64,000 bases of DNA from Chryseolinea sp. H1M3-3 (GTDB taxonomy: Bacteria > Bacteroidota > Bacteroidia > Cytophagales > Cyclobacteriaceae). Position 1 is the first letter of the stretch; each line of letters opens with the position of its first letter. Shown here one piece after another: positions 45,368 through 62,878 of this stretch. The translations under genes and the position numbers were made by a program. The stretch covers positions 1,488,001-1,552,000 of the forward strand of contig NZ_JARKMY010000001.1 of the NCBI RefSeq assembly GCF_029360725.1. Reading direction: 5' to 3'. The notes under the pieces are model-generated. The model saw only the letters and a list, made by a program, of their open reading frames with translations, made no database searches and had not been told where the DNA came from.

Positions 45368-47389
45368 TCATTCAAGCGTTTTTAATTGCTCTTTAATAAT
45401 TCGATTAAACTGATAGTATTCTTCTTTTTTAATAAATCCGTTTTCTTCAATCCAATCTTCTATGCTGTATTTGCGAACAAACAATTCAATGGTTGAGCCT
45501 TCCATGCGGGAATTTGAAGTCAGGTATTCAGCCATTTTCAATAGTAATAATTTGTTCCGTTGCAAAATTTCAAATGCTTGTGCCTCGCAATCTTTAATGA
45601 TTTTGATAGCTTCAACGGCATGTTTCTGAGAGTTGAAAAAAGCATTTTCATTCTGAGTAGATTCTACAGCGAGGTGAATAGGGTCGGCCCCCATGGCGTA
45701 TTTGCGTATCGCCTTGTTTGCAAGTGCAGATGCTTCTTCAATATCACTATAAACGCCAGACGAAGTAAGCTCTTCTCCAAAAATCATTTTCTCTGCTACA
45801 TAACCACCTAACGTTATAACAATATCTTTCTTCAGGCTTTCCCGGGTCATGGGTCCTTTTGGAAAATTTATCAGGCAAAAGCCTTCTGCCTCCGATGCCG
45901 TTCTTGAAACCACTGCCGATGGAATGATCCGCAAAGTGAGCGCAGCCAGGATAGCGTGAGCCGCTTCATGCACAGCAACGTGGGCCTGAATTTCCGGATC
46001 AATACTTTTTCTCAAATTTTCCAATTTGAGCTTGGCCTCGTCTGAAATAGTTGAGACCGCGTCACCATTTTTATCCTTAATGGTATAAATAAAACTACCA
46101 TCCTTATAAATCCAAATAATTTCGGCTATTGGCAATTGATACTCAAGAATGGAAACGACAAGATTGCTTATCCTGGATTCGATCAAGTTTTTAACGGTGG
46201 TCAAAACGGGTCTCGTGCCTTGCGCTGGGTAGACTCCTTCGGCATACACGATGTCAACAACTGATTCATCAAATGTCATTTTCCATCCGAACCGGTGTAT
46301 CACAAAAGCAGCTACTCTTTTTAATTCTTGCCTTATTAAAAGCCGGAATTGTGCATTGTTAAAAGATTTATAAACCACATGGTTATTACCTAATCTGGCA
46401 ATCTGCTCAGAGCGGAACCTTTTACGCAGAGCTCTTTTAATATGCGCAATCGTGATTTTTGAAGTTGCCTCATGAAATTCGTCAGCGCTTATATCAGGGT
46501 TCATGCTATGACTCATAGCATAAGCTTCGTCCAGATTTCCCAGGATAAATATTAAAGCACGAGACAAATCCAATTCTTTAGTTGCCGGCCTTGAACGCAT
46601 GCCTTCCAAAATAAATACTTTAAGATCCGACACAGAACAAGTTTTTACGCGCTCTTTGATTTGATCTTTTGAATAATCATCGTTATCAAATAAACAAAAT
46701 AAGCCTTCGATAAAATCTTCTGAAAGGAAATATGCTTTGTCTAAAGCCACACCATCACGACCAACGTTCTCGAAATAGAAACCATCAAAGAGCTTCGTGA
46801 ATGTTTCGATACCATTAACAACTTCTCCATTTTCCAATAGTACTTCACTTTTGATAAGTTTATCTAACCTTTTAATACAATGATCAGCTCTGAAAAGATA
46901 ATAAGTACTATGCCCTGGGATATAATCAATCTTCCCGGAGTCCAACAGATCCCATATCACTCTTAACTTATCCTTTCCCAATTCATTTGCGTTGCTATCT
47001 AATGTTTTTGCAAACTGAAATTCATCAAGGCAAATTAAAGCCGGCTTCTGATGAAAGAAATCAAGATCATTCGTGAGAATGTTTTTTATCCATGACGCCG
47101 AGTCGGATTCAAATTCGCCCATGTCAATGTGCGTATAGAACCTACGATAATCCAGAAACTCAACAATGCTTTGTACCAACGCAGTTTTACCTGAGCCTGT
47201 AAGACCCCAAAGGTTAATGACGGTTGGTCTCAACTGAGCTTCGGGAAATAGATACCAAGGCATAATCAGGGACATAACTTCATCAATGATGCTGTCTAAT
47301 CCGAGAAACCGTTCTTTTAGTTTGAGCGTGATTTGTTGCAACGTCTGCTTCTTAACAATCAACTCATTATGTAAAATTTGTGTGTTCAT
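45368..47389 (-). CDS. AAA+ ATPase fused to an FtsH-type M41 metalloprotease domain
   Basis: 673 residues from the ATG at 47389 (MNTQILHNEL). The N-terminal half is a AAA+ domain with Walker A WGLTGSGKTALV, Walker B ALICLDEFQF and a ClpB/HslU-like flavour rather than the FtsH AAA. The C-terminal part has the zinc motif HEAAH (AVHEAAHAILAALTLR) and the SGVYSDIEEASALANKAI segment with the third metal ligand, both typical of peptidase M41. No membrane helix precedes the AAA domain. It starts 4 bases after the rtcB stop, so the protease and the RNA ligase are co-expressed. Confidence 0.87.
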   Translation of the reverse strand: MNTQILHNELIVKKQTLQQITLKLKERFLGLDSIIDEVMSLIMPWYLFPEAQLRPTVINLWGLTGSGKTALVQSIVEFLDYRRFYTHIDMGEFESDSASWIKNILTNDLDFFHQKPALICLDEFQFAKTLDSNANELGKDKLRVIWDLLDSGKIDYIPGHSTYYLFRADHCIKRLDKLIKSEVLLENGEVVNGIETFTKLFDGFYFENVGRDGVALDKAYFLSEDFIEGLFCLFDNDDYSKDQIKERVKTCSVSDLKVFILEGMRSRPATKELDLSRALIFILGNLDEAYAMSHSMNPDISADEFHEATSKITIAHIKRALRKRFRSEQIARLGNNHVVYKSFNNAQFRLLIRQELKRVAAFVIHRFGWKMTFDESVVDIVYAEGVYPAQGTRPVLTTVKNLIESRISNLVVSILEYQLPIAEIIWIYKDGSFIYTIKDKNGDAVSTISDEAKLKLENLRKSIDPEIQAHVAVHEAAHAILAALTLRIIPSAVVSRTASEAEGFCLINFPKGPMTRESLKKDIVITLGGYVAEKMIFGEELTSSGVYSDIEEASALANKAIRKYAMGADPIHLAVESTQNENAFFNSQKHAVEAIKIIKDCEAQAFEILQRNKLLLLKMAEYLTSNSRMEGSTIELFVRKYSIEDWIEENGFIKKEEYYQFNRIIKEQLKTLE

Positions 47390-47393
47390 AATT

Positions 47394-48803
47394 TTAATCT
47401 TTAGCCATCCGCACAATTCGGGGATGAAATTTTCCTTCTACATTTACTAATGTCGTCTGGCTCTTCATAATCAGGTCGATATCTTTATAAGCCACAGGCG
47501 CTTCCTCCGGACTGCCACCGATCAAGATGATCTTCTCGCTTTGCAAAACTTTTTTTAGAGCACTTACTGTAATTGTATTCTTTGCTTTTTGGCGAGACAA
47601 TTTTCTTCCTGCACCATGGGCAGCAGAATTCAACGAAGATTCATTACCCAAACCACACACCACATATCCTGGTGCAGTCATACTTCCCGGAATTATTCCA
47701 AGGACTCCTTCGGCTGCAGGTGTAGCACCTTTGCGATGAATCACATACTCATTTCCGTCGTAAAGTTTTTCCCTCCACGCGAAATTGTGGTGATTCTCAA
47801 CCCTGCTTAAAACAGAAAGTCCAAGTGCATCGCACAAATTTTTATGGATGCGATCGTGACAGGCTTTTGCGTATTCACCTGCCAAGTTCATAGCGATCCA
47901 GTATTCGTTTCCTTCTTCACTATCCAAGTCAAGCCACGCCAGATGCTTTGCTTCTCTTGGAATCTTGCACTTACTCATCGCGATGTTAGTGTAATGCTGG
48001 GCAATATTAGCGCCCAAGCTTCTTGAACCTGAGTGCGATAATATTGCTGCATAATTACCTTTCGGAAGATGAAGATTATTGCTTTTTTCAAGCGATACAA
48101 TTCCAAATTCTACAAAGTGATTCCCCGAACCAGAACTACCTAGTTGCCTAATAGCTTTCCCACGTAACCGTCTAAGCAGATCGGTTAATTGAAAATCCGG
48201 ATGATCTAATACGTCATGCTCTTGTCGTGACTCAAGACCGCCGTCATTACCAAAATGTGTTTCATCATGCAAAACTTTCTTTAATTCATAAGCATGATGC
48301 TCCACATAGCTCCCAGGCAGATCAAGAATACTCAGCGCCATCCGGCAGCCGATGTCCATTCCGACACCATATGGGAGGACTGCATTCTTCGTTGCAAGTA
48401 CTCCGCCAATAGGCAAGCCGTAGCCCTGGTGAGCATCGGGCATCAAGGCACCTTTTTCTGCAATCGGTAGGCGCATGACTAATTCCATCTGCTTCAACGC
48501 ATTTGTTTCAATGTGCTTGTTTCCAAAAACATCAAAATGCTTGGGTTCATCACTCAATTGAAAAACGTTAAATGAATCATTGCTAAGCGTTTTCGAAACC
48601 AGCTTCAGTGCGAGAATTCCAAGCGTACTATGACCTACATATGACTCCGGCTGCTCCAACACCGTGCTAATTAATTTTAGTTTCTCTTCGTTCGGTGTAT
48701 GCTTAAAGTGCCTGTTCATAATATTTAAGGCGAGGCTTCTTGCTACATCCGAAGGAAAATTGACGACTGTTAAATCTTTTATATTAAGTTTTTGTGTGCT
48801 CAT
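47394..48803 (-). CDS. rtcB: RNA-splicing ligase RtcB, copy 1
   Basis: 469 residues. All RtcB signatures are present: MPDAHQGYGLPIGGVLA, the manganese-ligand Cys in GVGMDIGCRM, SGSGNHFVEFG, LSHSGSRSLGA, ENHHNFAWRE and the HGAGRKLSR motif that carries the guanylate-accepting His. RtcB joins 2',3'-cyclic phosphate or 3'-phosphate RNA ends to 5'-OH ends, as needed to reseal cleaved tRNA. It shares an operon with the AAA-M41 protease. The upstream 350 bases have several hairpins but not the TGCGCA operator of rtcB copy 2. No archease gene is visible. Confidence 0.95.
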   Translation of the reverse strand: MSTQKLNIKDLTVVNFPSDVARSLALNIMNRHFKHTPNEEKLKLISTVLEQPESYVGHSTLGILALKLVSKTLSNDSFNVFQLSDEPKHFDVFGNKHIETNALKQMELVMRLPIAEKGALMPDAHQGYGLPIGGVLATKNAVLPYGVGMDIGCRMALSILDLPGSYVEHHAYELKKVLHDETHFGNDGGLESRQEHDVLDHPDFQLTDLLRRLRGKAIRQLGSSGSGNHFVEFGIVSLEKSNNLHLPKGNYAAILSHSGSRSLGANIAQHYTNIAMSKCKIPREAKHLAWLDLDSEEGNEYWIAMNLAGEYAKACHDRIHKNLCDALGLSVLSRVENHHNFAWREKLYDGNEYVIHRKGATPAAEGVLGIIPGSMTAPGYVVCGLGNESSLNSAAHGAGRKLSRQKAKNTITVSALKKVLQSEKIILIGGSPEEAPVAYKDIDLIMKSQTTLVNVEGKFHPRIVRMAKD

Positions 48804-51735: not shown

Positions 51736-52797
51736 TTACAGATAAAATTTATTACGAATCTCAATGAGGAGACTTTCGGCAAGTATTGGATCCGACGTTT
51801 CTGGGAGATCCGATTTCTGAAACAACTCGTCAAGAACTTGAATCTTCTCTTCAGCCTTCGTCAGCAAATCCTCATATATAAATTCGCCTGCACGGATATG
51901 CAATAGCCATTCACGCTCTGGTCGTCGTACGTTTACTTTTTTCTGACTGGCAATTTCCTCGGCCATGTTCAATAAACGAAATACATGCATCATGTTCTTC
52001 GCATCATAATTTTTGCCATGACTTACCGTATTTTCATATCGTTCTTCATTCCGTTGTTCAACCCATTCCCAATACTGACGATATTCCCTGCAATAAACAG
52101 AGTAGCCATCTTTGTTAAAATACAAAATGGCTTTTGGTTGCAGACCTTCAGGCACTGAGCTTAGTGAAACTTCATCAGCCTCGTGTCCTGAAAAGATTCC
52201 GGAAAATTTCCGGTCCGCTTGAGACTGATGGAACAGCGCATACATATCCCGCATATAATCAATCCTAACAAGACCACAACCTTCTTGAACATACCCTTGT
52301 TCAGCAAGCCATTCCGCAACAGGAACGGAACCTTGTCCCTTAACCACGTGACAAAAATCAAGAATCGTCTTTCTCTTTCGGTCTAATGGATTCAGGATTT
52401 TCTTATTCAGTCCTCTTGCCTTCTTGATTTGTGCGTATGCATATTGACCGAAGGTTTGATTGCAGAGCCTCGACAAGAACATTTCAGGTTTAAGCAGATT
52501 CATCACTGCATGACGATACAATACACAGTCTTCCGGAGTACTCAACAGCTCGAGAATATTCGGATTGTTCTTCAGTAGCAGTTCAACAAACTTCTTGATC
52601 TCATAGTACATGATATCATTTGTTTCATTGTTGATCTGATCAACGTAAGTCAGTCCATAGAATTCATTCTTTGGTAAGATAAAAACACCCTTGATGTCAG
52701 TATCTGAATGTGGTAGAGCCAGACCATAAGCCTGGCTACCACTAATGCACTTTAGCAAGAGATGTGAGGAATTATTTTGAAGATCCTTGAGTGTCAT
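51736..52797 (-). CDS. RlaP-like nucleotidyltransferase, copy 2
   Basis: 353 residues. The N-terminal polymerase-beta-type active site reads KCISGSQAYGLALPHSDTDIKGVFILP, with G-S-x-A and paired Asp residues. The downstream helical region has LLKNNPNILELLSTPEDC and RKRKTILDFCHVVKG. It matches the predicted nucleotidyltransferase family PF10127, named RlaP for its links to RNA-repair ligases. It overlaps the other nucleotidyltransferase by four bases. The two differ in length and may use different RNA ends. Confidence 0.85.
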   Translation of the reverse strand: MTLKDLQNNSSHLLLKCISGSQAYGLALPHSDTDIKGVFILPKNEFYGLTYVDQINNETNDIMYYEIKKFVELLLKNNPNILELLSTPEDCVLYRHAVMNLLKPEMFLSRLCNQTFGQYAYAQIKKARGLNKKILNPLDRKRKTILDFCHVVKGQGSVPVAEWLAEQGYVQEGCGLVRIDYMRDMYALFHQSQADRKFSGIFSGHEADEVSLSSVPEGLQPKAILYFNKDGYSVYCREYRQYWEWVEQRNEERYENTVSHGKNYDAKNMMHVFRLLNMAEEIASQKKVNVRRPEREWLLHIRAGEFIYEDLLTKAEEKIQVLDELFQKSDLPETSDPILAESLLIEIRNKFYL

Positions 52798-53540
52798 GCG
52801 ATAGACTTCTTAAACAGTTTATTTATTTCAGCATCTTCTCCTTTGCTGCTAGCCGCAGGAACTCTCGCTTCACAGTAACGTATACTTCCATCAATATAAG
52901 CATTGAGATCAGAATGTCTTTCAATCATAAAACTTTCATCAACATTCGCCTTAATCGCAAGCAGTTCGTCCACTACACCATCAAATTGTTCAGGCATCAG
53001 CATACGCAGGCTTTTGAAATCCATCGGCGGAACTGACTTAAGGTCAGCGATCCATTTTGCTGCTAGAACAGGCCTCAGCGAATAAAAGTATTTTTTGAGC
53101 CGTACCAATTCACCAGACAATTCGCTTTCCAAAACTCCCTTTGCCATGCTAAGATAGTGATGCATTCCGGCGCGTGCTGAGAAATGACAAGCCATCAGTG
53201 ACCTTATCGATTGCGAAAAGTCTTCGTCCTCGTGATACACTATCGGTGATTGCAACCATTCGTAAAGTGGAGCATTTGATTTCCGGAAAAGCCTAAGTGC
53301 CTTTCTCAGTTCCCATCCGTTGATATCAAGCACATCATTGATCGGAAGTTCAATTACATCACGCTGTTCATCAATAGAAAGATAGTAATCCATCTTGTGA
53401 ACGTAGATGAAACGAACATCAAAATCACTGTTGGGAGAAGCAAAACCCCAGGCACGGCTGCCAGACTCACAGGCATAGAGGATCTTGACATCAAATTGAT
53501 ATTCTATGGATTTGAGTTTTTCGAGAATGATTTCTTTCAC
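52794..53540 (-). CDS. RlaP-like nucleotidyltransferase, copy 1
   Basis: 248 residues from the GTG at 53540, giving MKEIILEKLKSIEYQFDVKI; the TTG further upstream lies inside the -7 element and is rejected. The active site is LYACESGSRAWGFASPNSDFDVRFIY, followed by LDINGWELRKALRLFRKSN, typical of PF10127 (RlaP, RNA-repair pathway polymerase-beta family). It has its own TGCGCA-type promoter immediately upstream. It leads a run of four genes: this enzyme, a second nucleotidyltransferase, a HAD protein and a secreted protein. Confidence 0.88.
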   Translation of the reverse strand: MKEIILEKLKSIEYQFDVKILYACESGSRAWGFASPNSDFDVRFIYVHKMDYYLSIDEQRDVIELPINDVLDINGWELRKALRLFRKSNAPLYEWLQSPIVYHEDEDFSQSIRSLMACHFSARAGMHHYLSMAKGVLESELSGELVRLKKYFYSLRPVLAAKWIADLKSVPPMDFKSLRMLMPEQFDGVVDELLAIKANVDESFMIERHSDLNAYIDGSIRYCEARVPAASSKGEDAEINKLFKKSIA

Positions 53541-53558
53541 GGCTACAACTTTATGATA

Positions 53559-53594
53559 CAATGTTATAGCCGATGTGCGCAGCCTTTTTGCGCA
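53559..53594 (-). promoter_or_regulatory. promoter/operator A: TGCGCA-N7-TGCGCA plus -7 element
   Basis: On the minus strand TGCGCAAAAAGGCTGCGCA (53594-53576) is followed by 13 bases and then ATTG as the end of TAACATTG, a 7-of-8 match to the Bacteroidota -7 element TAnnTTTG (53566-53559). The GTG start of the nucleotidyltransferase follows about 20 bases later. The same layout occurs at 58393-58428 and 61077-61112. Confidence 0.75.
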
Positions 53595-53599
53595 GGGGT

Positions 53600-54157
53600 C
53601 TATTTCTCAGAATTTTTTAGCCGAAACATAATGTCCGTCCTCAAAACATACTTAATGCCTTCAGTTACTTCGGTCCCCTCATGCTCGAGATAGTGATAAA
53701 ATACCAAGGCGGCCCCTTTCGTAGGAGCAACAACGAGATTATTAAATTTTGTTTCTCCACCTTTAAAAGTATCATTCAGGTAAACCATGAAAGTATAATA
53801 ACTTGCCTCTCGATTATTCCGAATATAACTCTGATCCCGATGCTTTCGGAATTGCTGACCAGGTTGATACCTGTAGAATCGAAATAATTCATTCAATCCA
53901 ATTGCCTCGGAATCGCCAATTGCCTTTGGTGCATGTGGCTCAAGCTCCTTCCACAGTTCCTGCGCAAGCATAGAGTCTTTGTACAAAACACGATTGTTAT
54001 TGCGAATGTGGTCGACAACACGTGGCCCGGTGTCAGTCTGAACTGTCGCAGCTTCATACCCTTTGCTTTCAGATTTAGCGATGTATTCATCGCATTTTTC
54101 TACCGACCAGAAATTTTCAACTAGAAAGATATCTTTCGACAGTACAACAGTTTTCAT
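53600..54157 (-). CDS. 2-oxoglutarate/Fe(II) dioxygenase (prolyl-4-hydroxylase-like)
   Basis: 185 residues. The iron facial triad is visible: HRDQS (His-x-Asp near residue 111) and the distal His in HEGTEV, with a basic residue after it for 2-oxoglutarate (YVLRTDIMF). The double-stranded beta-helix fold (FMVYLNDTFKGGETKF) matches P4H-type oxygenases. Substrates in the family range from protein prolines to nucleic-acid lesions. It stops just before operator A, and its start follows a hairpin (54169-54188) after the small upstream gene. Confidence 0.88.
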   Translation of the reverse strand: MKTVVLSKDIFLVENFWSVEKCDEYIAKSESKGYEAATVQTDTGPRVVDHIRNNNRVLYKDSMLAQELWKELEPHAPKAIGDSEAIGLNELFRFYRYQPGQQFRKHRDQSYIRNNREASYYTFMVYLNDTFKGGETKFNNLVVAPTKGAALVFYHYLEHEGTEVTEGIKYVLRTDIMFRLKNSEK

Positions 54158-56494: not shown

Positions 56495-56941
56495 TTACTT
56501 TTTTAATAAAGACTTCAGTCTGTTGTATTCATCAATTGGAAAATCATGTTCGATCCACTTCTCTTTATATCCCTCCATTCCATATTTGTCAAGAATCTGC
56601 TTTGCGTTATTAAAGATCTCAGTCGAAAAATTTAAAATGGTGTCTTGGCATTTAAGAACCATTTCAAATTCCTTTTCAGTTATCAGATTCCAGCTAGCCC
56701 AATCTTTGAACCATCTTATCTCAATATCAAGATTTGTCGCACTAAGTGATTGCAGGTGAACAAGGTGCTCACCAGGCTCATCCATAGTGATCACCTTGGC
56801 ATCGGGGGCACCTTTAAGAAGCAGATTCGCTGCTGTTATAAATTCAGCCAACGTATCATGAAGGTATGAGACTGTCATGTTAACTCCTTCACGGCCGTCA
56901 TGCATGTCTACGCTCGCCCAACCATGGTCTCCTAATTGCAA
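56495..56941 (-). CDS. uncharacterised 148-residue protein between rtcB2 and HEAT gene
   Basis: The sequence starts GDHGWASVDMHDGREGVNM and continues YLHDTLAEFITAANLLLKGA and VITMDEPGEHLVHLQ, then a Trp-rich part (IRWFKDWASW) and a helical end. I recognise it only as a small, widespread family whose members share the GWA...YLxDxL and EPGE blocks, with no known function. It begins 26 bases after the rtcB2 stop, so it is almost certainly co-transcribed. Confidence 0.7.
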   Translation of the reverse strand: MQLGDHGWASVDMHDGREGVNMTVSYLHDTLAEFITAANLLLKGAPDAKVITMDEPGEHLVHLQSLSATNLDIEIRWFKDWASWNLITEKEFEMVLKCQDTILNFSTEIFNNAKQILDKYGMEGYKEKWIEHDFPIDEYNRLKSLLKK

Positions 56942-56967: not shown

Positions 56968-58374
56968 CTAGTCAACCTCCTGAAATTTCTCATCCCCACA
57001 CATTCTTACAATCTTCGGCATGAAAGAGCCTAGAACTTCCACGAGATCTTTTTGATAGTTCATTACCTGATGTATATCCTTATATGCCATTGGTGCTTCA
57101 TCAAGACCGGAGCCTATCAGTTCAACTCCGGCTTCCTTAAGAAATTTGTTTACGTGTCCTGGAAGAATAGTTTGCTTTGCTTTTGTTCTTGACATCGTTC
57201 GTCCCGCTCCATGTGAAGCGGAGTTTATAGATTCTGCCAAACCTTTACCACGAACGATGAACCCTGGTGTTGCCATCGATCCAGGAATAATTCCGAGAAC
57301 TCCGTTACCTGCGGGTGTTGCACCCTTACGATGAACAATTATCTCATTGCCTTTTACATCTTTTTCTTTCCATGCAAAATTGTGATGGTTCTCGATCATA
57401 GCCAACGGAGTCTCGCGCAACCCTATAGCCATCCGCTCGTGGATTTGATGATGGCATGCGGATGCATAATCTCCGGCAAGATTCATAGCAAGCCAGTATT
57501 CTTGTCCGGCTTCTGTATTGAGATCAAGCCAGGCTAAATGCTTTGCTTCTTGTGGAAGTTTGCAAACATCCATGGCAATCTTGGTGTAATGTCGTGCAAT
57601 ATTGGCGCCTAAGCCACGAGAACCCGAATGTGAAAGCACAGCTACATATTGGCCAGTAGCCACATTAAACTCATTAATGGGATGCAATATCTCTATAATA
57701 CCAAATTCAACAAAGTGATTTCCCCCGCCCGAAGATCCCATCTGTTGCCACGCCCGATCTTTCATTTCCCGTACAATGCTTAGCTCGCTGAATTCTTTCC
57801 GGTCCAGGACTTCATGATCTTTTGGTTTTTTGAAAGTGGCCTGCCCGAACTTTGTATTGTTAATCAACATTTTCTTAAAGTCCTCTTTCTTATCTTCCAA
57901 AAGAGTTGAAGGAAGATTATAAAGTGTCATACACATCCGACAACCTATATCCACGCCTACTCCATAAGGAATAACTGCGTTTTTTGTAGCAAGTACACCT
58001 CCAATGGGAAGCCCATATCCTTGATGGGCATCCGGCATTAACGCACCTGCCACCGTTACAGGCAATTTCATCGCTGTCTCCATTTGCTCAAGGGCACCTT
58101 GCTCGATGGCTTCTGCTCCATAAATCTGATAAGATTTCCCCTCCACATTAAGAGCAATTGTTTCGTCAGCCGGTTTTAATAATTCCGTTGCAACTGGAGC
58201 CAGTATAGTATCATTAATAAATGACGAAGGATTGCTCAGTATTTGCTTCAACAAGGCAAGCTTGTCATCGAAGCTTAAGGTTGCATATTGTTGTTCTACG
58301 AGATCAAGTGCAAGACCTAGAGCCTTGCCTTCTATAACACCAATCTGCTTTAAGTCATTTCCTGTTAAGTTCAT
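56968..58374 (-). CDS. rtcB: RNA-splicing ligase RtcB, copy 2
   Basis: 468 residues from the ATG at 58374 (MNLTGNDLKQIG). It carries MPDAHQGYGLPIGGVLA, GVGVDIGCRM, SGGGNHFVEFG, LSHSGSRGLGA, ENHHNFAWKE and HGAGRTMSR, so all catalytic and metal-binding positions of RtcB are intact. Clearly homologous to copy 1 but diverged, mainly in the N-terminal 70 residues. It has operator/promoter B upstream and leads an operon with the 148-residue protein and the HEAT protein. Its 3'-phosphate/5'-OH ligase activity would be the sealing step of the proposed RNA-repair response. Confidence 0.95.
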   Translation of the reverse strand: MNLTGNDLKQIGVIEGKALGLALDLVEQQYATLSFDDKLALLKQILSNPSSFINDTILAPVATELLKPADETIALNVEGKSYQIYGAEAIEQGALEQMETAMKLPVTVAGALMPDAHQGYGLPIGGVLATKNAVIPYGVGVDIGCRMCMTLYNLPSTLLEDKKEDFKKMLINNTKFGQATFKKPKDHEVLDRKEFSELSIVREMKDRAWQQMGSSGGGNHFVEFGIIEILHPINEFNVATGQYVAVLSHSGSRGLGANIARHYTKIAMDVCKLPQEAKHLAWLDLNTEAGQEYWLAMNLAGDYASACHHQIHERMAIGLRETPLAMIENHHNFAWKEKDVKGNEIIVHRKGATPAGNGVLGIIPGSMATPGFIVRGKGLAESINSASHGAGRTMSRTKAKQTILPGHVNKFLKEAGVELIGSGLDEAPMAYKDIHQVMNYQKDLVEVLGSFMPKIVRMCGDEKFQEVD

Positions 58375-58392
58375 GTTCTTTTTTTGATGATT

Positions 58393-58428
58393 CAAAGATC
58401 GGGAAGTAGTGCGCAACCTTTTTGCGTA
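58393..58428 (-). promoter_or_regulatory. promoter/operator B: TGCGCA-N7-TGCGTA plus -7 element before rtcB2
   Basis: On the minus strand TACGCAAAAAGGTTGCGCA (58428-58410) is followed by 13 bases and GATCTTTG (58400-58393), a 7-of-8 match to TAnnTTTG, then TTTGAATCATC. The rtcB2 ATG follows 18 bases after the -7 element. The arrangement is the same as at 53559-53594 and 61077-61112, including the AAAAAG spacer and the ATCAT that follows. Confidence 0.78.
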
Positions 58429-58462
58429 GCTTGAAGTTATGCGCCTGTCGAATTACTGTTGA

Positions 58463-58810
58463 TTAAAACGCTAAAAAAATAAGAGGATGCTCGCCGGCGC
58501 TGATCCTACGGTTGTTAATATGAGCGGAACATTCAAGGAGCGCAATATAAATATCGTGTGCCTTCATTTTAAGCTCGGCGACATTAACCAGACGAATTAC
58601 AAGGTATTCTCCTTTCCTTATCGAAAAATTAGTTGTCATTCCATGCTCTGGTTTATCCAGATCGCCCATGCAGTCAATCCAGGCATTCATATTTCGTCCA
58701 TAGAAATCGGGGAAACCAAACTTCTTTTGAAAGTAAGAATGGAACGCATTCCAGCTGACTATTTTCGATGCATTGATGTTGACGATGTGTATTCGATTGT
58801 CGGGTTCCAT
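58463..58810 (-). CDS. barstar-like RNase inhibitor
   Basis: 115 residues from the ATG at 58810. The barstar core is recognisable: FHSYFQKKFGFPDFYGRNMNAWIDCMGDL, with the loop that binds barnase-type RNases and the conserved GRNxxAWxD positions. Barstar proteins neutralise guanyl-specific RNases. No barnase-like gene is seen nearby, so the target may be a chromosomal or incoming RNase toxin. It lies between operator B and the slipin gene; whether it is read from the slipin transcript is uncertain because of the hairpin at 58861. Confidence 0.85.
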   Translation of the reverse strand: MEPDNRIHIVNINASKIVSWNAFHSYFQKKFGFPDFYGRNMNAWIDCMGDLDKPEHGMTTNFSIRKGEYLVIRLVNVAELKMKAHDIYIALLECSAHINNRRISAGEHPLIFLAF

Positions 58811-58860
58811 GGGGCGATTTGGGATTGTTTTTCTAACATGCAAGCGTTACGATATAGAGA

Positions 58861-58892: not shown

Positions 58893-59993
58893 CTACTTCC
58901 GAGGCACGAAGATATCCTTCAACTGATCAATGATCTGGTTACCACCTGACAACGAGATGCTGTTGATCTTATCTGCAATTTTCTCCACGTACTCCATTTC
59001 TTTCAATTTGAACAACATGGAGTTCTCTTCCATCAATTTAGCAGTGTTCAACAAGCTTCTTGTCGAAGCTGTCTCTTCACGCCTCATGATGACGTTGGCC
59101 TCAGCTTTCTTCTGAGCTACCAACACCTGGTTCATGATCTCTTTCATTTCACCAGGCAAGATGATATCCCTTACGCCGCAGTCCCTGATCTCTACACCCA
59201 AGTTGTAAGCTTTGTCTTTCAACGTTGCCAAAACGTAGGATGAGATGGATTCTTTCTTTTCCAACATTTCGTCCAAAGAAAGCGTACCAATGAATTCTCT
59301 CAATGCTAACTGCATCAGGATATACAATTGTTTCTCATAATCCTTGTTCTCAATCAAAGCTTTGATAATATCAACAACTTTGTATTGCGTATAGAAGTTG
59401 ACTCTCAACGCAGCTTTGTCCTTAGTCAGAATTTCCTGACCTGAAACTTCAAGCTGCAATTGTCTCAAATCAGCCTTCAAGACTGAGATCACAACAGCAT
59501 TCTTCCAGAAGTAATAAACTCCGGTATCCAATACTTTTGAGAACTTACCATCGATTAACAAAATACCTTTCTCAAATGACTCAACCGCATATACTCTTAC
59601 GTAAGGCAATATTTCTTTTCGCATGATCGTATTGGTATCGATGTTCTCGGTAACCTCGATCTTGCTCAAATCTGCTTTAATGAATGAGTAGTCAGTTACA
59701 CCTTTCCAGTAAGCATATCTCCCTGGCCCCAAGACGTTCTTGAAGTTACCGTTCTCATACTGCAAGGCGATTTCGTTATCTCTCACCTCCACAACGGTCA
59801 GCATGTGTGCCAACTGTTCATCCTTCACCAGGATATTCAAATCGATGGAAGGATGGAAAGGTTTTGTCAGATCGTACTGGAATACATCCTCATTCGGAAG
59901 CAACCAATACGCGCCTTCCGTAACTATTTTTCTGTAGTTACCATTTCTGAACACCAAACCAATTTTGCCTGTGTTAATTCTGATCCTTTTCAT
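58893..59993 (-). CDS. slipin (SPFH/stomatin-like protein)
   Basis: 366 residues from the ATG at 59993 (MKRIRINTGKIGLVF). The first part contains two beta-rich repeats (RNGNYRKIVTEGAYWLL and NFKNVLGPGRYAYWKG), followed by the SPFH domain (DIIKALIENKDYEKQL, DCGVRDIILPGEMKEIMNQVLVAQKKAEANV) and a coiled C-terminus. There is no N-terminal membrane helix. Slipins of this type occur in RNA-repair operons with RtcB in other bacteria (established context). It is read from promoter C through a long leader that contains the tRNA-like elements. Confidence 0.88.
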   Translation of the reverse strand: MKRIRINTGKIGLVFRNGNYRKIVTEGAYWLLPNEDVFQYDLTKPFHPSIDLNILVKDEQLAHMLTVVEVRDNEIALQYENGNFKNVLGPGRYAYWKGVTDYSFIKADLSKIEVTENIDTNTIMRKEILPYVRVYAVESFEKGILLIDGKFSKVLDTGVYYFWKNAVVISVLKADLRQLQLEVSGQEILTKDKAALRVNFYTQYKVVDIIKALIENKDYEKQLYILMQLALREFIGTLSLDEMLEKKESISSYVLATLKDKAYNLGVEIRDCGVRDIILPGEMKEIMNQVLVAQKKAEANVIMRREETASTRSLLNTAKLMEENSMLFKLKEMEYVEKIADKINSISLSGGNQIIDQLKDIFVPRK

Positions 59994-60245
59994 CTGTCCT
60001 ATTTTTAAATTAAAACGTTCCTTACTATCTAAGTTAGCAGTACCTAATTTTCGCACCCTGTCGTACCGATGGAATGCTCAAGCACAGTCCAATGCTCTTT
60101 TCAAAATTTTTAACGTGAGCATTTCATCGTTATAAAAATTAATTAAATAAAGTCTTTAAAAGAAAGTAGTTCACGACATATCATCCTCTGATAACGGGAG
60201 TGTAATTGAGAATAGCGCTATCTGTTTAGTTTTCTCCACCGCACC

Positions 60246-60263
60246 TCCGGATAGCTATCGGGA
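60246..60263. repeat. 18-bp dispersed palindrome, copy 3 (one change)
   Basis: TCCGGATAGCTATCGGGA, one base from the perfect palindrome TCCCGATAGCTATCGGGA; relatives are at 30766 and 30873. It lies in the slipin leader. Confidence 0.65.
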
Positions 60264-60468
60264 CTTCTTCAAGAGGTCTTGATAGAAGACAGGATTTTAA
60301 TGGAGAAAAGTAAGCTGACTTACCATCCGGTATCCTTACACCTACAAGTTTTCAAATGACTGGTCCTCAGACTAGCCCGTTCCCGAAGGTGACGGATTTC
60401 GACTTAGACCTGACATGCCCCGAACTACTTTCGGGAAACCCTTTTTAGAAGAGGTCAACTTCTTTACC

Positions 60469-60539
60469 ATGGATTAACAGTCCATTGCTCTACCAAACTG
60501 AGCTATCACATTCGAAGTGTGAGGGGGATTCGAACCCCC
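60469..60539 (-). ncRNA. circularly permuted tRNA-Asn-like element (B), anticodon GUU
   Basis: Read on the minus strand: T-arm GGGGG-TTCGAAT-CCCCC (60539-60523), acceptor 3' strand TCACACT (60522-60516), loop TCG, acceptor 5' strand AATGTGA (60512-60506, 6 of 7 paired), TA, D-arm GCTC-AGTTTGGTA-GAGC (60503-60487), A, anticodon arm ATGGA-CTGTTAA-TCCAT (60485-60469). Every spacing is that of a tRNA, except that the T-arm comes first and the acceptor strands are joined by a 3-base loop. The break is in the variable loop. It could be circularised or ligated by RtcB, or act as a decoy. Confidence 0.8.
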
Positions 60540-60544
60540 GCTAT

Positions 60545-60613
60545 CCTGTTGCTCTAACCAAACTGAGCTATCCGCCAGTTGGCGGAGAAGGAATCGAACC
60601 TTCGACCCACAAG
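60545..60613 (-). ncRNA. circularly permuted tRNA-like element (A), broken in the anticodon loop
   Basis: Read on the minus strand: anticodon 3' strand CTTGT (60613-60609), variable GGGTC, T-arm GAAGG-TTCGATT-CCTTC (60603-60587), acceptor 3' strand TCCGCCA (60586-60580), loop AC, acceptor 5' strand TGGCGGA (60577-60571, all 7 paired), TA, D-arm GCTC-AGTTTGGTTA-GAGC (60568-60551), A, anticodon 5' strand ACAGG (60549-60545). ACAGG pairs with CTTGT with one G-T wobble. The anticodon loop is absent, so the ends lie where anticodon nucleases cut. Element B follows after 5 bases. Confidence 0.8.
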
Positions 60614-60800
60614 GTGGTGGAAAACAACATCGAGCTAAGCAGCATGTTATATTGTACAACAACACAACACTATGGCGCCATATAGAAACGCTCATCAGGT
60701 CTTATACTTTCTGTTTCTTCCGCGCTCCCTCCAGACATAGTCATGGAGAAAGATTTTAAGTCCACCAGTTGGCGGACAATATTTTTATCAAAGAACATTT

Positions 60801-60890
60801 GTGGCCTTACTCAGATTCGAACTGAGATTCCTTTGCAGGCAGCATGGCTCTAAATGCGCTTCCCTACTAAACTTCTCCGAGAGGTTTTTC
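60801..60890 (-). ncRNA. degenerate tRNA-like fragment with a T-arm
   Basis: On the minus strand CTCAG-TTCGAAT-CTGAG (60826-60810) is a perfect T-arm, followed by TAAGGCCAC that could be an acceptor 3' strand. Upstream lies AGTTTAGTAGGGAAGC, similar to a D-arm, and a TTTAGAG heptamer that would give a UAG (Leu) anticodon loop. The acceptor 5' strand and the anticodon stem are not convincing, so it is either a decayed tRNA or a diverged relative of elements A and B. Confidence 0.45.
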
Positions 60891-61012
60891 GGTGCATCTG
60901 CAAAATCTATCCGTTATAGCGTATAGCAGTAACGGAATCATCCATGCACTCTACGGAACGTCAATACTTTTACCGTAGGCTTTTCCTTTTAAGCTATAAG
61001 ACCTTTCAAAAC

Positions 61013-61076: not shown

Positions 61077-61112
61077 CAAAATTGAAGCCCTACTGCGCAG
61101 TCTTTTTGCGCA
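61077..61112 (-). promoter_or_regulatory. promoter/operator C: TGCGCA-N7-TGCGCA between slipin leader and WYL regulator
   Basis: On the minus strand TGCGCAAAAAGACTGCGCA (61112-61094) is followed by exactly 13 bases and TTTGAATTATC, as in promoter B; the -7 element is CAATTTTG (61084-61077). The asymmetric A-rich spacer has the same orientation as in A and B relative to minus-strand transcription, so the promoter points into the tRNA-like leader and slipin. The same palindrome lies 38 bases before the WYL gene on the plus strand and could also autoregulate it. Confidence 0.75.
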
Positions 61113-61150
61113 GTAAATATTTTTTACGTTTTTTATTAAAAAATTTCAGC

Positions 61151-62878
61151 ATGCCGGTAAACAGGAACGCCCTTATTCGTTATAGAACCATTGACAATTG
61201 CCTCAAAAACAGGAAAAGAAAGTGGACATTGGAGGATTTGATAGAGGCATGCTCGGAGGCGCTCTATGAGTATGAAGGAATAGATAAGGGCGTAAGCAAG
61301 CGTTCTATTCAAATGGATATTCAATTCATGCGAAGCGATAAGCTTGGTTACAATGCTCCAATCGTTGTGTTGGAAAAGAAGTATTATAGTTATGAAGACC
61401 CGAATTATTCTATTACAAATATTCCGTTGACAGAGCAGGATCTGGGAAAGCTAACCGAAGTAGTAGGAATTCTTAAGCAGTTCAAAGGATTTAGCCACTT
61501 CCAGGAATTGAGCGTAATGGTTCAGCGTCTTGAAAATAAAATATACGCTGCCAAGACAAATACTGAACCAGTCATCGATTTTGAAAAGAATGAAAATCTC
61601 AAAGGACTCGAACATATTGAAGCATTGTATCAAGCTATTATTAAAGAATGCACGGTTGAATTATGTTATCAGTCTTTCAAAGCCAGAAGCGCTAACACAT
61701 TCACCTTTCATCCATACTATTTAAAGGAGTATCGAAACAGATGGTTCGTCATTGGCGTGAAAAAAAGAAAATCTCCGATTCTTACGTTGGCACTGGATCG
61801 CATTGTTAGTATCGGGGAATGTGACAAAGCCTATGTGCCGAGGGATAAAGAGTTCGCACTTCCGGAGTTTTTTAAAGATGTTCTGGGTGTTACAGTCAAT
61901 CCCGATGGAAAAACTGAAAGGGTATTGCTTTTTGCCGATAATCAGACCGCTCCATATATATTAACTAAACCCATCCACCATTCTCAACGGGCAGAGGAAA
62001 CACTTCCCAACGGGATGATATTTTCATTACAGGTACAACTTAATTATGAGTTAGAGCGGGAAATACTTGGTTTCGGAGACCATATTAGAGTACTTTCTCC
62101 TGAACGGCTTAAGAGAAGAATAAAAGAATGCCTGACGCATGCCCTTGATCAGTATCAATATGAATTAAGTGAAAACGCCCTGCATGGAGCGATACAGAAA
62201 CTTACATACAAAGGGTTCATGATTCTCCACCATGTTTTTTCAAAAAAGGAGATCAATCAGATTAAATCCCGGATCGACTACTATTTTAAGATCAGGAATG
62301 AGGAAAACGCTCACGCGATTCGAAATGTCTTGGGCGAAATTCCTGAGTTAAAATCTCTGATTCTAAATGCAAACCTTCTACACATATTGAGAAAAATAGA
62401 TCCTAAGCTTTTTTTGACCAAAGCGATCTTTTTTGATAAGACACCGGAGTCCAATTGGTATGTCACCTGGCATCAAGACATAATTATCAATGTGAAGGAA
62501 AAAATAGAGACAAACGGTTTTACAGGCTGGACAAAGAAATCAGGGGTGCATGGTGTATGTCCTCCAGAAGAAATTCTGAGAGATACTATCACAATCAGAA
62601 TTCATCTCGATGACACCGATGAAACAAATGGTGCCTTAAAAGTCGTTCCCGGCTCGCATAACAAAAAACTGTCTGATGAAGAAATAAATTTGATCACTCA
62701 AAATGGGATTCCTTATATATGTGAGGTGGCCGCGTGTGGTATACAGATAATGAAACCTCTGCTACTTCATTCTTCATCAAAAGCCACAAGTCAGAAGCAT
62801 CGAAGAGTAATTCACCTTGAATTTAGTACAATGGATTTACCGAATGGATTGAAATGGGCGGAACGCCAGGAATTGTGA
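61151..62878 (+). CDS. WYL-domain transcriptional regulator fused to a PhyH-type 2OG-Fe(II) dioxygenase domain
   Basis: 575 residues from the ATG at 61151 (MPVNRNALIRYRTID). The longer open frame upstream would run through the operator. The N-terminus is a winged HTH (RKWTLEDLIEACSEAL and SKRSIQMDIQFMRSD). A WYL domain follows (ELCYQSFKARSANTFTFHPYYLKEYRNRWFV, residues about 175-330, with a WCX-like end). The last 220 residues are a phytanoyl-CoA-dioxygenase-like domain with His441-x-Asp443 (TWHQDI), distal His540 (LLHSSSKA) and Arg551/552 for 2-oxoglutarate. WYL regulators commonly control RNA-repair and defence loci. It probably binds the TGCGCA operators, with iron/2OG as a possible second input. 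Confidence 0.88.
   Translation: MPVNRNALIRYRTIDNCLKNRKRKWTLEDLIEACSEALYEYEGIDKGVSKRSIQMDIQFMRSDKLGYNAPIVVLEKKYYSYEDPNYSITNIPLTEQDLGKLTEVVGILKQFKGFSHFQELSVMVQRLENKIYAAKTNTEPVIDFEKNENLKGLEHIEALYQAIIKECTVELCYQSFKARSANTFTFHPYYLKEYRNRWFVIGVKKRKSPILTLALDRIVSIGECDKAYVPRDKEFALPEFFKDVLGVTVNPDGKTERVLLFADNQTAPYILTKPIHHSQRAEETLPNGMIFSLQVQLNYELEREILGFGDHIRVLSPERLKRRIKECLTHALDQYQYELSENALHGAIQKLTYKGFMILHHVFSKKEINQIKSRIDYYFKIRNEENAHAIRNVLGEIPELKSLILNANLLHILRKIDPKLFLTKAIFFDKTPESNWYVTWHQDIIINVKEKIETNGFTGWTKKSGVHGVCPPEEILRDTITIRIHLDDTDETNGALKVVPGSHNKKLSDEEINLITQNGIPYICEVAACGIQIMKPLLLHSSSKATSQKHRRVIHLEFSTMDLPNGLKWAERQEL

Follow-up and report, generated by a model that had tools for sequence, protein, structure and literature searches.

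What purpose is served by two tRNA-like elements which lie in tandem beside a gene for the RNA ligase RtcB, and in which the arms of the tRNA stand in circularly permuted order? The elements, here named modules A and B, are found in a stretch of 64,000 nucleotides (nt) from Chryseolinea sp. H1M3-3 (the window; contig NZ_JARKMY010000001.1, positions 1,488,001 to 1,552,000, counted below from its first letter), where they form a tandem permuted pair on the minus strand between a divergent WYL regulator gene and a Band-7/SPFH gene. Each module folds as a tRNA, but with a short loop sealing its acceptor stem; hence, neither is expected to be charged or to serve in translation. Covariation among relatives, a D-loop G that is invariant in each module, and the sealed acceptors indicate that selection maintains the shape of a tRNA in A and B rather than tRNAs as such. 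How bacterial RtcB finds broken tRNAs is a largely open question.

Architecture of the Permuted Pair

The two modules occupy the following positions:

60545 to 60613, minus strand: module A, with split anticodon stem (CTTGT/ACAGG), variable loop, T-arm, closed acceptor hairpin and D-arm
60469 to 60539, minus strand: module B, with T-arm, closed acceptor hairpin, D-arm and complete anticodon arm (loop CTGTTAA, anticodon GUU)

Module A is composed, in this order, of the anticodon 3' strand, the variable loop, the T-arm (60603-60587), the acceptor 3' strand, a 2-nt loop, the acceptor 5' strand, the dinucleotide TA, the D-arm and the anticodon 5' strand. All seven acceptor positions are paired (TCCGCCA/TGGCGGA), as are all five of the split anticodon stem, in which ACAGG meets CTTGT (60613-60609) with one G-U pair. 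This is the layout of the tRNA-like domain of the bacterial Y RNA YrlA, and module A lacks an anticodon loop. Module B is permuted in the variable loop and runs from the T-arm (60539-60523) through acceptor strand, 3-nt loop and second acceptor strand (TCACACT and AATGTGA around TCG, 6 of 7 positions paired) to the D-arm and a full anticodon arm, ATGGA-CTGTTAA-TCCAT (GUU). Upon direct reading and in a scripted search, the coordinates and the description of both elements given in the original prediction hold.

Standard tools recover the pair only in part. ARAGORN predicts no tRNA at either module, the Rfam tRNA model matches A and B partly (34.7 and 29.4 bits; cut-off 29), and at Rfam gathering scores these two partial matches are all that touches the pair. 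When the sequence is folded alone, the result falls short of significance (z -1.23), and in the minimum-energy fold ACAG pairs with the anticodon loop of B, not with CTTGT; the support for the fold comes from covariation among relatives and not from single-sequence folding. A search rule demanding a fully paired T-stem (5/5) and no more than 3 nt in the acceptor loop gave one match in total over 60 dinucleotide shuffles of the window, both strands included, versus two matches in the window itself, adjacent and on one strand. Under a looser rule for permuted tRNAs, the 60 shuffles yielded 55 matches, of which 49 had a 4/5 T-stem; the plus strand of the window contains one match of this kind.

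Conservation and Covariation

A 961-base query recovered the region at 76-78% identity in three of the five genomes of the same genus; weaker matches came from some other genera. Seven Band-7 proteins then served as queries, and the best 80 of 343 relatives were taken from named genomes. The resulting 80 loci are labelled Bacteroidota or groups thereof, except for one metagenome-assembled genome of Chlorobiota and one entry labelled "bacterium"; they include close relatives (e.g., L090, L092, L093, and L102), and the alignment cells reported below count sequences, not events.

Modules with a T-arm followed by a D-arm are present 250-760 nt upstream of the Band-7 gene in 65 of 81 loci (window included), in a search which ignored acceptor pairing. 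Among 93 distinct acceptor pairs, 67 show pairing at six or more of seven positions, compared with a mean of 8.2 and a maximum of 19 in 2000 trials in which partners were swapped between loci. The split anticodon stem, scored for A and B modules together, has at least four of five pairs in 35 of 84 cases (mean 13.2 and maximum 24 upon swapping). Shuffle counts and the partner-swap test of the acceptor pairs led us to reject a chance origin of the modules.

An alignment of 29 rows (A2) was built from loci in which two T-arms stand 55-95 nt from each other (62 of 81) and are followed by a 5+7+5 anticodon arm with T33, the rows being picked further by eye; hence, T33 and the anticodon helix of B are not independent of row selection in A2. 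Both partners have changed in 36 of its 41 base pairs, and pairing holds in 92.6% of the cells, versus 70.2% in shuffled controls and 40-51% when partners are slid. The split anticodon stem is paired in 82.8% of the cells, with double changes in all five pairs. RNAalifold, given no structure beforehand, predicts 35 pairs, of which 30 show double changes; its fold differs little from this one but lacks the D-stem of B. Each module has one D-loop G that never varies; the letters of the T-loop are conserved by choice and prove nothing, given that the T-arm search required TTC[AG]A. The original prediction had set compensatory changes in the acceptor pairs as its test, and these are abundant by swap test, 29-row alignment and RNAalifold alike. 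Its claim of tRNA-like, circularly permuted, acceptor-closed elements beside RtcB is supported, and the elements are under selection.

The anticodon of module B turns over in a conserved setting. Sixteen different anticodons occur among 27 loops of normal length (two of the 29 rows have longer loops by alignment), while position 32 is C or T in all 27 and position 37 is A in 21. T33 is found in 20 of 21 modules scored without requiring it, three of 24 rows having been dropped as non-B modules (T-arms in L080 and L081; L045 at -752). The acceptor loop of A measures 2 nt in 13 of 29 rows.

In the inspected parts of a 24-locus alignment, the pair forms a section of a longer conserved RNA, which extends from a domain just 5' of A to approximately 60-150 nt before the Band-7 gene. 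The motif of the 5' domain is present in 54 of 81 upstream regions at no more than three mismatches. In the window, the flanking parts are:

60616 to 60701, minus strand: conserved domain directly 5' of A, GACCTGATGAG..GGCGCCATAGT-stem-ATGCTGCT..GTTGTTTTCCACCA, from the 24-locus alignment
60150 to 60468, minus strand: conserved 3' part of the leader RNA, AGGATACCG ... CTACTTTCTTTTAAAG, from the alignment, with approximate boundaries

Association with Band-7 and RtcB

R1, a covariance model of the A/B pair, gives 80 bits or more at the expected position in 61 of the 80 Band-7 loci, including 33 of 52 that were not used in training. When 395 genomes of the phylum, the own genome included, were scanned without reference to Band-7, R1 reached at least 95 bits in 17 genomes, two of which (the own genome and the training genome G375) are not independent. 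In 16 of these 17, a Band-7 gene follows directly downstream on the same strand; the exception is G424 (L159), without Band-7. Among the next 13 loci (86 down to 71 bits), none has Band-7 within about 1.5 kb on each side, two of these loci being shortened. R1 also matches tRNA genes, with some match at E 1e-4 in 377 of 395 genomes; therefore, only high scores are read as the pair, and the lower ones are taken by us as probable tandem tRNAs. As an identity for the A/B pair itself, ordinary tandem tRNA genes were rejected.

RtcB is encoded in 58 of the 80 loci, though not always adjoining Band-7; where the downstream sequence reaches 5 kb or more (64 loci), 48 encode it. A WYL homologue is present in 42 of 80. 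Ten proteins from five loci without nearby RtcB, comprising TPR, AAA/STAND-type and unrelated families, revealed no common factor. In Pseudomonas aeruginosa PA14, an SPFH gene is situated inside the rtc locus (PMC13086221).

Relationship to YrlA

At a permissive threshold, the Rfam model of YrlA (RF02553) matches both modules, A with 42.5 bits (E 1.5e-8; model positions 23-85) and B with 34.5 bits (E 3.1e-6; model positions 30-81). The alignment spans the sealed acceptor hairpin, the T- and D-arms and, for A, also the helix that replaces the anticodon stem; the full anticodon arm of B with its U33 lies outside it. A YrlA match at A or B was obtained in all eight further Band-7 loci tested (E 4.7e-7 to 0.0052), and none at E 0.01 in L141, a tandem tRNA gene array. 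The gathering score of 69 bits was never reached in the window, in L021-L029 or in the further loci (best 45.9 bits).

YrlA is described as a tRNA mimic which DusA and TruB modify and which binds PNPase through its tRNA-like domain; in some bacteria the rsr/Y RNA genes sit in rtcBA operons, that of Salmonella YrlA among them (PMC8394870, PMC7790460). The original prediction knew of no described bacterial set beside RtcB, which was wrong in kind, considering that both modules match an RNA found in rtcBA operons.

A permuted tRNA-like domain, the sealed acceptor hairpin, the T- and D-arms and a helix at the place of the anticodon stem are shared by YrlA and A/B. Unlike YrlA, however, A/B come as tandem modules, with a full anticodon arm in B, within a longer RNA and with Band-7 in place of Ro60. 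No match to Ro60/Rsr (TROVE) was obtained in the own genome, while seven of the 39 genomes searched have one. Judged by sequence, the modules are thus to be regarded as of the Y-RNA kind, but as no Y RNA by defining partner (Ro60) and stem.

In genome G003, a locus beside Ro60 (TROVE) contains several permuted tRNA-like pieces (L029, 5900-6600, minus strand), which by eye resemble tandem Y RNAs and two of which match YrlA (38 and 32 bits); the locus also has a copy of the gene at 56495-56941 of the window.

The Surrounding Locus and T0

Upstream of the pair, the window contains a second, separate tRNA-like RNA, here called T0, and an operator-like palindrome that recurs further downstream in the gene cluster:

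61151 to 62878, plus strand: divergent WYL/WCX regulator fused to a phytanoyl-CoA dioxygenase-like (PhyH) domain
61093 to 61113, minus strand: palindromic operator-like site CTGCGCAAAAAGACTGCGCAG, exact match, at the presumed promoter of the RNA
60800 to 61003, minus strand: T0, about 200 nt, 7/7 acceptor pairs
58896 to 59993, minus strand: Band-7/SPFH gene directly 3' of the RNA (PF01145, E 6.8e-35), start conserved in alignment A1
58463 to 58843, minus strand: Barstar-like protein (PF01337)
58409 to 58429, minus strand: second copy of the operator-like site (two mismatches to the pattern), at the start of rtcB
56968 to 58416, minus strand: RtcB RNA ligase (PF01139, E 2.1e-82)
53575 to 53595, minus strand: third copy of the operator-like site (two mismatches to the pattern), before the RlaP gene
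52794 to 53561 and 51736 to 52797, minus strand: two RlaP-type nucleotidyltransferase genes (PF10127)

The start of the WYL-PhyH gene is likely at 61151, since the open reading frame (ORF) called from 60944 overlaps the RNA; the match of a distant homologue begins only at residue 70. The cluster also contains a 2OG-oxygenase gene (53600-54157). A second RtcB (47394-48803, minus strand) is followed by a long ORF, by eye AAA+/FtsH-like (45368-47416, minus strand), and the genome has four RtcB loci in all.

The palindrome CTGCGCAAAAAGACTGCGCAG is present in 46 of 81 upstream regions, versus 0.8 in shuffles, and 0.02 matches per window are expected at up to three mismatches. Together with the divergent WYL gene, the shared palindrome suggests that the RNA, rtcB and RlaP form one regulon.

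In T0, whose acceptor has 7 bp, the parts follow the canonical tRNA order, and the variable region holds a large conserved insert (core TTTGCAGAWGCACCGAAA...GTAGGGAAGCGCATTTA). In an alignment of 16 rows, chosen by the conserved motif and at least six acceptor pairs (15 rows with seven, one with six), so that acceptor pairing is partly by choice, 64 of 217 columns are invariant and 28 of 45 pairs show double changes. No Rfam family matches T0 at gathering score. Among 395 genomes, its covariance model, R2, reaches at least 146 bits in four, one of which is the own genome; 19 further matches pass E 1e-5, with scores no higher than 33 bits. In further loci, T0 adjoins Band-7 (L179, L031, L036), RtcB (L181) or the WYL gene (L180, L028), or lies 1.6-2.1 kb upstream of Band-7 (L038, L051).

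Canonical-order tRNA-like elements are seen elsewhere as well. In the minimal loci L037, L040, L041 and L043, the operator-like site is followed by a tRNA-like element (GUA, odd D-arm) and then by Band-7; elements of this type also precede the pair on its 5' side in other loci, among them L048, L068 and L077. Just right of the window (L141, 1524-3644), ten ARAGORN tRNA genes lie beside genes which by eye resemble those of a conjugative element; in a tRNA-like stretch of this array, the D- and T-arm regions contain palindromes, e.g., CCCGATAGCTATCGGG, which is found inside the T0 of G003 as well.

Comparison with Other tRNA-Like RNAs

Permuted tRNA genes of algae and archaea share with A/B the 3' half placed before the 5' half, pairing acceptor strands and a short intervening sequence. 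A/B differ from them by the missing splicing endonuclease match, by the lack of an anticodon in A, and by their position inside a longer conserved RNA; no tRNAs are expected to arise from them. Transfer-messenger RNA (tmRNA), including its two-piece permuted forms, likewise has a tRNA-like domain within a longer bacterial RNA, and permuted tmRNA is known (PMC3978253). The tmRNA model scores 17.3 and 10.8 bits at A and B, below its gathering score of 47.

In a 2016 review, Burroughs and Aravind reportedly predicted that SPFH/Band-7 repair modules have a cognate "novel tRNA-like molecule". That RNA would resemble A/B in being tRNA-like and tied to Band-7 in RtcB loci, and a tRNA-like RNA does lie directly beside Band-7 in RtcB loci here; the molecule they meant may be A/B, T0 or the tRNA-Tyr-like element. 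In the literature searched, which comprised few subscription papers, we recognised no work on Band-7-linked or tandem permuted tRNA-like RNA, which is weak evidence of novelty. What looks new is a long RNA free of Ro60, with tandem modules, with a full arm and a varying anticodon in B, and with T0 in the regulon.

Possible Functions

By analogy, A and B may constitute the tRNA-mimicking core of a structured leader RNA, which would act as a tRNA-shaped scaffold for the Band-7/RtcB machinery; we assign to this reading a probability of about 0.5. The WYL regulator would free the shared palindromic sites, whereupon the RNA would be made together with Band-7, RtcB and RlaP. The body of the RNA would bind the Band-7 oligomer, and the two mimics, presenting the tRNA elbow, would hold RtcB, RlaP or, as with YrlA, PNPase on a platform near broken tRNAs.

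Several points weigh against the scaffold. Its basis is the resemblance to YrlA together with the neighbouring genes. The basal Ro60-binding stem that defines Y RNAs, and by which a protein partner would be held, is unmatched for A in the window (model positions 1-22 and 86-114); in L070 and L097 the YrlA match spans positions 1-114 at 37-40 bits, so that such a stem may be present at some loci. The full anticodon arm of B with its U33 fits a bait better than a tether. R1 matches only partially (36-71 bits) in 14 of 80 loci and not at all in five, four of which (L037, L040, L041, and L043) have instead a canonical-order tRNA-like element with the loop CTGTAAA, while the fifth (L096) is cut by a contig end. 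No RtcB was found in the examined stretch, in some cases a short one, in 22 of 80 loci. Finally, the share of the pair described here is that among the best 80 of 343 relatives, more distant Band-7 genes lying beyond it.

The anticodon arm of B leads to a possible, if less probable, role as a decoy, in which the modules would divert tRNA-cleaving toxins, or the anticodon loop of B would be cut and then re-sealed by RtcB. The retention of a full arm and a tRNA-like loop (C/T32, T33, A37) while the anticodon turns over speaks for it, as do the barstar-like gene in the operon and the suggestion by others that the YrlA tRNA-like domain acts by competitive inhibition (PMC7790460). However, A offers no anticodon loop to cut, and one RNA per operon would need very high abundance; furthermore, tRNA cleavage in Salmonella gave no detected YrlA fragments, and YrlA is reported as uncut by the tRNA-cleaving nuclease studied (PMC7790460). 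Somewhat less probable still is a cis-acting sensor, by which the leader would detect free RtcB or cleaved tRNAs through A and set the expression of Band-7 and the repair genes. The conserved RNA directly upstream of Band-7 and the resemblance of A to a nicked tRNA held together by its acceptor are consistent with such a sensor, but rtcB and rlaP have operator-like copies of their own and need not be controlled by the leader. The same resemblance underlies a doubtful third variant, in which A would imitate a tRNA nicked in the anticodon loop, i.e., the substrate of RtcB, and B the intact product, within a Ro60-independent ribonucleoprotein where Band-7 and RtcB/RlaP read or gate repair and the anticodons are in an arms race with tRNA-cleaving toxins.

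Two explanations would dispense with a mimic altogether. True circularly permuted tRNA genes, matured via a circular intermediate made by RtcB, would account for the order of the halves, as in algae and archaea, and for the nearby RtcB, and intervening sequences as short as 1 nt exist (PMC3978253). This origin is nevertheless very unlikely: the splicing endonuclease family PF01974 is unmatched in the genome, four of 14 control genomes, all archaea, having a match, in a search which did not extend to the bulge-helix-bulge motif itself; A joins to no definite anticodon, with its acceptor loop being as short as 2 nt in 13 of 29 rows; and the modules lie inside a longer conserved RNA. Debris from recombination of tRNA genes would be suggested by the D- and anticodon arms of B, which are 87% identical to two tRNA genes (Phe, Lys), and by the tRNA genes clustering nearby. 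It is practically excluded by the covariation, i.e., by a fixed place across Bacteroidota with compensatory change, and no other match to A was obtained in the own genome at E 0.001, with eight of 33 candidate places scored.

Significance

The locus shows that the Y-RNA design, a tRNA closed at its acceptor, occurs also in the absence of Ro60 and twice in a row. New Rfam families could be seeded by the covarying alignments and their models (A2/R1 for the pair and A4/R2 for T0). Spread over Bacteroidota, an RNA whose modules are likely unchargeable tRNA mimics, and which stands by RtcB and a membrane-scaffold gene, offers a handle on how RtcB finds broken tRNAs.
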